Of a stretch of 33,152 bases of DNA, positions 2,301 through 10,963 are shown one piece after another (positions within the stretch are counted from its first letter, which is position 1; every line of letters starts with the position of its first letter). A program made the position numbers and the translations under genes. The notes under the pieces were generated by a model. It was not told the DNA's origin. It ran no database searches and saw only the letters and a list, made by a program, of their open reading frames with translations. The stretch spans positions 1-33,152 of the forward strand of contig JABGQV010000195.1 of the NCBI GenBank assembly GCA_018648655.1. Direction: 5' to 3'. The DNA comes from Anaerolineae bacterium (GTDB lineage: Bacteria; Chloroflexota; Anaerolineae; Anaerolineales; Villigracilaceae).

Positions 2301-4139
<1,839 letters not shown>

Positions 4140-4200: not shown

Positions 4201-4238
4201 TAAACAAAAAGCCACGATGCTGTGCGCACCGTGGCTAA
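4201..4238 (-). terminator. Intrinsic terminator/attenuator between leader ORF and ABC exporter genes
   Basis: Minus strand AGCCACGGTGC-GCACA-GCATCGTGGCT (11-bp stem, one G-U) followed by TTTTTGTTT; lies after the leader stop and before the ABC start codon. Confidence 0.88.
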
Positions 4239-4263
4239 AAAGACGAGAATATAATTTCTTTCT

Positions 4264-4338
4264 TTAAAGAGGCATAGGCGCACTAAGGCTAAGTGAGTTA
4301 TCAACACTTGGGCGGATAAAGATTTTTTGAATGGTCAT
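4264..4338 (-). CDS. 24-aa regulatory leader peptide MTIQKIFIRPSVDNSLSLSAPMPL
   Basis: ATG at 4338, TAA at 4264-4266; strong RBS (AAAAAGGAG, 9 nt spacing). Sits between a good promoter and an intrinsic terminator. Confidence 0.75.
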   Translation of the reverse strand: MTIQKIFIRPSVDNSLSLSAPMPL

Positions 4339-4385
4339 ATTAGTACGCTCCTTTTTAAAATTTACTTCCGAAGAAGTATGCGCAG

Positions 4386-4414
4386 AGTCTATCATTTTGA
4401 AGGGGGAGAGTCAA
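4386..4414 (-). promoter_or_regulatory. Sigma-70-like promoter for leader/ABC operon
   Basis: Minus strand TTGACT-N17-TAGACT with extended -10 TG (TGATAGACT). Confidence 0.65.
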
Positions 4415-6371: not shown

Positions 6372-6405
6372 AAAAAAAGAGACAGCCTGCGCTGTCTCTT
6401 TTTTT
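6372..6405. terminator. Bidirectional terminator between convergent genes
   Basis: AAAAAAAGAGACAGC-CTGC-GCTGTCTCTTTTTTT. Confidence 0.85.
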
Positions 6406-10165: not shown

Positions 10166-10963
10166 ATGGACTACAATGCTCGCTTCTACTCTCCCTATAA
10201 TACCCACCAATTCACCAGTCCAGATAGCATCATTCCCGACCATTATAACCCACAGAGCTGGAACCGCTATGCATATGTCCGGAACAACCCTGTAAAGTAT
10301 ACGGACCCCACAGGCCATTGGGAAATGCATATAGATGATAACGGCCCATACCGCCCAAGCTTGAGTGATTTTGGCATCAAAACGAGTGGATTATCAAGAA
10401 CACAAAAAGATATAGTTTGGGAAGGAGCTCGTTTAATAGGTTCTCGTATAAATGGGCTTTCTGATCTTCCCATTGCTGATGCTTTTCGAACAGCACATCG
10501 GGATAATATTAACAATAAAGACGTCTCCATAAGTATTACGGGGGTTGATTACGGTATTGGAAACTGTATAACAGATAGTCACACAATAAATTGTGAGTAT
10601 TCTTTGACTACAGAAGGGGCTATCCATGAATTGGGACATGTGTTTGATAACCAATTCAACAGTTTTGCCGGAGAGTTTTGGGCATCAAATTATCTGCCAA
10701 CACATACCAGAGAAATCACTGGATATAAGGGCAATGATTTTCCCTATGTAGGGCATTCGTGGATACATGAGGGGGGAGATAAGATGATCGAAGAGTTCGC
10801 TGACATGTACCAGAATTGGGTTTTACATGACCTCCCTGACTATCCAAGGAGCGGGTTTACAAGCGATGTTCCCGCCGCCTATTCTCCATGGGATAGATAC
10901 AGTTATATGAACTACCAAATGACTAATATATGGTTGCCTACAATGGGGATGGTGATACGATGA
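10166..10963 (+). CDS. Orphan RHS-repeat-associated core tip with C-terminal putative zinc metallopeptidase domain
   Basis: Starts in the RHS core motif (MDYNARFYSP..FTSPDSIIPD..NPQSWNRYAYVRNNPVKYTDPTGH) then HELGH (HExxH) and a downstream EEFADMY segment. RBS-like AGGTGG 6 nt before the ATG. Confidence 0.8.
   Translation: MDYNARFYSPYNTHQFTSPDSIIPDHYNPQSWNRYAYVRNNPVKYTDPTGHWEMHIDDNGPYRPSLSDFGIKTSGLSRTQKDIVWEGARLIGSRINGLSDLPIADAFRTAHRDNINNKDVSISITGVDYGIGNCITDSHTINCEYSLTTEGAIHELGHVFDNQFNSFAGEFWASNYLPTHTREITGYKGNDFPYVGHSWIHEGGDKMIEEFADMYQNWVLHDLPDYPRSGFTSDVPAAYSPWDRYSYMNYQMTNIWLPTMGMVIR

Follow-up and report, generated by a model that had tools for sequence, protein, structure and literature searches.

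Does the DNA between a promoter and a pair of ABC exporter genes in an Anaerolineae bacterium encode a leader-peptide transcription attenuator, and if so, what would switch it? The window, that is, the whole stretch of 33,152 nt that we analysed, carries on its minus strand, by sequence inspection, a promoter followed by a 24-codon leader, an intrinsic terminator and the genes of a heterodimeric ABC exporter (Table 1). The initial annotation had proposed an attenuator here from a promoter, a 5' hairpin, a ribosome-binding site, a 24-codon ORF, a terminator and the ABC start codon, and every one of these parts is present where it was placed. It had also suggested an alternative pairing between GTGCGC, correctly located at 4278-4283 within what we call segment 2, and GCGCAC in the terminator apex (segment 3); this partner exists, two bases away from the 4224-4229 assigned to it, which was the only slip of coordinates. 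What it missed were a further RNA segment at the leader ribosome-binding site (segment 1), a multi-operon family to which the element belongs, and a conserved peptide motif at the leader C-terminus.

Table 1. Predicted features of the leader region and the exporter genes, in window positions.
Feature	Position	Strand	Basis
Promoter: -35 TTGACT (4414-4409), 17-nt spacer, -10 TAGACT (4391-4386), TG upstream	4386-4414	-	Consensus match, predicted
Hairpin ACTTC-TTCG-GAAGT at predicted transcript 5' end	4364-4377	-	Sequence and fold
Segment 1: Shine-Dalgarno AGGAG (4352-4348) and spacer; GCGUACUAA (4348-4340) pairs with segment 2	4340-4352	-	Fold, covariation
Leader ORF, 24 codons and stop (4266-4264), MTIQKIFIRPSVDNSLSLSAPMPL	4264-4338	-	Related leader at equivalent place in 35 orthologous loci
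Segment 2: L-S-A-P motif codons CTT AGT GCG CCT; TTAGTGCGC pairs with segment 1, GTGCGC (4283-4278) with segment 3	4276-4286	-	Fold, covariation
Segment 3: terminator upper 5' arm and loop, GGTGCGCAC; GCGCAC (4227-4222) pairs with segment 2	4222-4230	-	Covariation, duplex energies
Intrinsic terminator (3:4): AGCCACGGTGC-GCACA-GCATCGTGGCT (4236-4210) and T run	4206-4236	-	Two-sided changes at 9 of 11 stem pairs, 33 orthologues
ABC exporter subunit A, 612 aa, ATG at 4139	2301-4139	-	Pfam ABC_membrane and ABC_tran
ABC exporter subunit B, 607 aa	405-2228	-	Pfam, alignment with subunit A

The predicted transcript folds far better than expected (z = -4.08), with none of 200 dinucleotide shuffles folding equally well. 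Promoter-like hexamers per se are no more frequent in the region than chance predicts (17 seen versus 15.0 +/- 4.1 expected); a TTGACA/TAAACT-type pair is kept at the matching position ahead of most orthologous leaders. The UUCG hairpin at the 5' end is conserved within the genus only and absent outside it, and in five congeners another hairpin-forming sequence occupies the position.

Leader and terminator recur in loci that were found through protein homology alone. With the downstream ABC protein as query, a match was obtained in all 60 of 60 related genomes, and 46 close orthologous loci were taken together with their upstream DNA. Outside a few families, the ABC orthologues are preceded by a short ORF with a Shine-Dalgarno sequence and then by a GC-rich hairpin with a T run, as the initial annotation had expected of homologous loci if its reading were right. 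In a few families the ABC orthologue has an unrelated short leader and a strong terminator (L032, G053:C60; L036, G040:C328; L040, G044:C265), these leaders ending in VKDGVDS or MNSLNSNFPVADAALMIHTC, which we read as leader turnover at one and the same ABC operon.

A covariance model (R1) built from 33 leaders over 162 positions matches 143 of the 152 genomes of the host's family, 184 of 250 sampled genomes of the order (83 of 106 genera) and 41 of 399 genomes across the phylum, often with several copies (2-6) per genome. The window copy, itself part of the training set, scores 89.8 bits (E 1.8e-22) and is one of three strong copies in its own genome, the others preceding an MFS transporter (88.3 bits) and a second ABC gene copy (76.4 bits); the last of these and its gene lie where a contig ends. 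When 85,488 named genomes were scanned for the exact pattern, 65 stretches were returned, 64 of them in Chloroflexota-named records and mostly in Anaerolineales. The sole match elsewhere, in Clostridia (L141), looks like chance, its ORF being some 100 codons long or longer and no homologues being listed downstream. A model match of 24.7 bits with a chance ORF (L104) was dropped. By these comparisons, the element belongs to a family that stands before several operons and extends over Anaerolineales and their relatives. No Rfam 15 family, including the Chloroflexi-1 motif (listed in PMC2864571), matches it at gathering or permissive thresholds (window and 10 orthologue loci, E up to 1), and NCBIfam has no family for the 24-aa leader. 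A search of the open-licence literature gave nothing relevant on Chloroflexi or Anaerolineae leader peptides or attenuators, and papers beyond it could alter this picture; the Anaerolineales family appears to be undescribed so far.

The only Rfam match in the window is a tRNA elsewhere. Two other features of the window may be recorded here: a near-perfect 15-bp bidirectional terminator hairpin between two convergent genes (6372-6405), and a 265-aa ORF (10166-10963) that starts with an RHS-like repeat end (YNARFYSPYNTHQFTSPDSIIPDHYNPQSWNRYAYVRNNPVKYTDPTGH) and has no long RHS protein ahead of it, a putative orphan C-terminal RHS fragment.

The genes behind the copies are mostly of the efflux or resistance type. 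Extra copies precede a second ABC exporter pair (13 loci), GNAT acetyltransferase clusters (11), MFS transporters followed by GNATs (5), the window-type ABC pair (4), DrrA-type ABC genes (2), and rsgA with a RIO kinase (1), and the pattern-scan loci comprise GNAT clusters (43) and window-type ABC pairs (16). The likeness of the GNATs to acetyltransferases of ribosomal proteins, spermidine and aminoglycosides lies far below curated cut-offs, those for known antibiotic acetyltransferases among them. The locus ahead of rsgA, which encodes a ribosome assembly GTPase, and the RIO kinase (L114, G038:C71:131904-132075) is the sole clearly non-exporter, non-GNAT operon. A second ABC-1 leader (L121, G126:C2:3038991-3039152), identical to L120 over the element, has no ABC genes behind it, and is either an orphan left by duplication of the leader or an artefact of assembly. 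As for the window exporter, alignment of its subunits places Asp where the catalytic Glu stands in the Walker B motif of subunit A (LILDD); subunit B has LFIMDE and a non-canonical signature, LSTGQ. The two make up a heterodimer with one degenerate ATP site; among its relatives with structures in the PDB are B. subtilis YheI, TM287/288 and TmrAB.

Three RNA segments of the element are conserved and co-adapted: the Shine-Dalgarno region of the leader (segment 1; in a family example AGGAGGCGCACUUC), the R/L-S-A-P codons (segment 2; CGGAGUGCGCCU) and the upper 5' arm and loop of the terminator (segment 3; for example GGUGCACUCC). Helix 1:2 excludes 2:3, and 2:3 breaks the top of the terminator stem (3:4). 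Across the 33 orthologues, pairing holds in 86% of cells for 1:2 and 95% for 2:3, compared with 17-67% when the segments are slid. Among 97 distinct elements, duplexes within a locus are more stable than duplexes made across loci, by about 11 standard deviations for 1:2 (native mean -15.97 versus -14.07 +/- 0.17) and about 8 for 2:3 (-15.98 versus -14.44 +/- 0.19), and not at all for 1:3, the negative control (-11.07 versus -11.23 +/- 0.14). The segments, their mutual exclusivity and their conservation are shown by the sequences themselves.

The alternative pairing that the initial annotation had pointed out, 2:3, also covaries in 64 other copies, nearly all of them ahead of other operons and outside the training alignment. 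There, the wobble base of the Arg codon varies with a base of the terminator loop (GC 19, AU 9, UA 8, CG 3), slid versions pair far worse, and the covariation score was reached by none of 500 shuffles, a statistic inflated by the relatedness of the sequences, for which 1:3, with no signal in the same copies, serves as internal control. Helix 1:2 covaries too, but about half of these loci came from a pattern in which segments 1 and 2 were largely fixed, and 2:3 gives the cleaner test. A natural double change is seen in the RSASV subgroup, where Pro CCT has become Ser TCT in segment 2 and segment 1 has gone from GGAGGCGC to GGAGACGC, a matching G-to-A change. The self-complementary terminator apex GTGCGCAC would allow pairing 1:3 in the window, but since 1:3 is not co-adapted we discarded it.

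The proposal of a leader-peptide transcription attenuator ahead of the exporter gains support from the leaders and terminators of the orthologues and from the 2:3 covariation. We consider it probable that the element is a ribosome-mediated transcription attenuator, in which a translation inhibitor, or something else that holds a ribosome on or close to the start codon, would free segment 2, let 2:3 form as an antiterminator and so permit read-through. Folding of the different states, which the initial annotation had proposed as a check, agrees with such a switch. When the start region is masked and the RNA ends at segment 3, the minimum-energy fold is 2:3 in 92 of 96 elements; the free full-length RNA forms 1:2 in 92 of 96 and 3:4 in all 96; and a ribosome mask over segment 2 leaves the terminator as the sole structure. 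In 91 of 96 elements, 3:4 exceeds 2:3 in stability as soon as segment 4 exists. Because the complete terminator is the more stable structure, antitermination would have to be a kinetic trap.

The course of events can be outlined as follows, with ribosome occupancy, kinetic trapping of 2:3, read-through and the inducer being steps that we infer. With no ribosome on the leader, 1:2 would form, the terminator would fold and transcription would stop. During normal translation, a ribosome at the end of the leader, paused on the R-S-A-P or stop codons, would cover segment 2, and again the terminator would fold. An inhibitor that holds one ribosome, or a queue, on or near the start codon would occupy segment 1 and leave segment 2 bare, the 2:3 antiterminator could form while segment 4 is still to be transcribed, and RNA polymerase would continue into the resistance-type operon. 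Anything that keeps ribosomes on or close to the leader start would be the simplest inducer, in keeping with operons that encode exporters and acetyltransferases; that translation inhibitors are sensed is a prediction from the topology and the downstream genes.

The leader peptides themselves bear on this mechanism. Across the family, the ORFs have 22-34 codons with variable N-terminal halves, and the C-termini share R-S-A-P, then V/I-D-R or similar, then a stop; the window leader ends in L-S-A-P-M-P-L, with the Arg replaced. Of the 97 elements, 92 have the Ala-Pro/Ser codons in frame, a property for which neither search selected. Six different codons encode the Arg, which is retained in 72 of the 92 in-frame leaders; the remaining 20, the window copy included, have Trp, Leu or others. 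Within the Arg codon, the paired third base varies by 1.61 bits and the first two, outside the core pairing, by 0.93 and 0.43 bits, and this lower variability of unpaired bases points to a coding constraint. In 90 of the 92 the stop codon follows 2-4 codons past the Pro, so that a terminating ribosome would cover part of segment 2. In 82 of 97 elements, the stop codon of the leader is spanned by a small hairpin (mean -5.85 versus -3.41 kcal/mol in shuffled sequences), which is weak in the window copy (4249-4276); perhaps it slows release. In one element (L026/L185, G021:C21) the leader is frameshifted (MNGITPNISAAGDEPTFLLGVRLLTGKG) with the RNA segments intact, which is either a natural test case or an assembly error.

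The in-frame motif and the retention of Arg through six codons would also suit an inducing arrest at the R-S-A-P codons, dependent on a drug or other ligand, in which the stalled ribosome itself blocks termination as in tlrB or TnaC; indeed, C-terminal arrest sites drive both tlrB (PMC6851288) and the RAPP-type leaders (PMC12992588). However, a ribosome there covers segment 2, leaving the conserved 2:3 helix without a role, about 28 nt lie in the window between the expected footprint edge and the terminator, and the window copy lacks the Arg altogether, and we regard this explanation as unlikely. An RNA-only switch, whether a riboswitch or a protein-binding element with an incidental ORF, could draw on the hairpin across the stop codon and on two loci of other classes in which the RNA pairing persists and which do not read Ser-Ala-Pro: L097 keeps 1:2 with the segment read in another frame, and in L099 the leader stops just ahead of the segment. 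These exceptions indicate that the RNA pairing is the older or stronger constraint, with the RSAP reading being, in the leaders collected, the rule in Anaerolineales. Against an RNA-only switch, the Shine-Dalgarno sequence, in-frame motif and stop position are kept in 92 of 97 elements and the element contains no aptamer-like domain and no Rfam match, which makes it very improbable. We give still less credence to a mainly translational role, in which 1:2 would throttle leader translation by hiding segment 1, the leader ribosome-binding site, and the terminator would merely insulate the operon, as this leaves the co-adaptation of segment 2 with the terminator loop unexplained. An attenuator responding through control codons to an amino acid or other metabolite has the trp-type topology of 1:2, 2:3 and 3:4 in its favor, but is likewise very improbable, as none of the 97 leaders contains a run of one amino acid and the genes downstream are exporters and acetyltransferases rather than biosynthetic.

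The ribosome-mediated attenuator that we favor can be set beside several known systems. Its leader ORF has its own ribosome-binding site between promoter and operon, an intrinsic terminator lies between leader and first gene, and mutually exclusive helices (1:2 and 2:3) covary, as expected of ribosome-mediated attenuators with trp topology. Genes of the efflux or resistance type follow, as expected of antibiotic-responsive attenuators of the bmrB kind. The initial annotation had likened the layout to bmrB-bmrCD of B. subtilis, where antibiotic induction needs leader translation (PMC4191407). The functional likeness is reasonable, in that a leader ORF, terminator and antiterminator stand ahead of a heterodimeric ABC multidrug exporter, with induction here being a prediction; the layout is unlike, since bmrB is a single locus with its terminator within a 53-codon leader ORF (PMC4191407), whereas here the terminator is downstream of the ORF, outside the leader coding region, the ribosome-binding site serves as segment 1 and copies of the element precede several operons. 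As in the E. coli trp attenuator (described in PMC4191407), three helices compete, the position of the ribosome would decide between them, and lack of translation would give termination; unlike trp, there are no control codons, segment 1 is not made of leader codons, and exporters and acetyltransferases lie downstream.

A short upstream ORF with Arg-small-small-Pro near its C-terminus is shared with SecM, ApcA and ApdA/ApdP (RAPP-like; PMC10987492, PMC12992588). RAPP-type arrest involves an irreplaceable Arg followed by A/G, P/G and P/G (PMC12992588), whereas here the third residue is Ala, which does not support arrest there, and Arg is replaced in 20 of 92 leaders; the family leaders also lack a signal sequence or membrane segment, and the genes are not sec or yidC. 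As RAPP arrest depends on the Arg together with Pro/Gly as the third residue, RSAP falls outside this class of peptides. Finally, B. subtilis tlrB (PMC6851288) likewise has a leader and terminator ahead of a resistance gene, with an antibiotic response that is established for tlrB and predicted here; however, tlrB lacks an overlapping antiterminator and relies on drug-dependent stalling of the ribosome at RYR (PMC6851288), whereas a covarying antiterminator is present in our elements.

A broader picture can be put forward only tentatively, and the odds are somewhat against it as a whole: an order-wide resistance regulon in Chloroflexota that would work without a shared transcription factor. 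A modular leader, with an operon-type-specific N-terminus and a constant RSAP-coding segment, would have been duplicated before pumps and acetyltransferases; a pause at R-S-A-P over segment 2 would be the default OFF state, the ribosome-binding site would compete with the antiterminator for that segment, and a jam near the start codon would turn the operon ON.

Chloroflexota are abundant in sediments, groundwater and sludge. We found no description in the open-licence literature of an antibiotic-response regulator of this kind for the phylum. The element family looks to be a new, regulon-like form of ribosome-mediated attenuation, with an antibiotic trigger as its prediction. If this is true, it would provide a phylum-level parallel to the single-gene resistance attenuators, in which one module of RNA and leader peptide has been copied before many operons, and it would predict which uncharacterised exporters and GNAT clusters share one response. 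Two further predictions concern R-S-A-P as a possible new pause motif and the ribosome-binding site of the leader as a possible switch segment of an attenuator.
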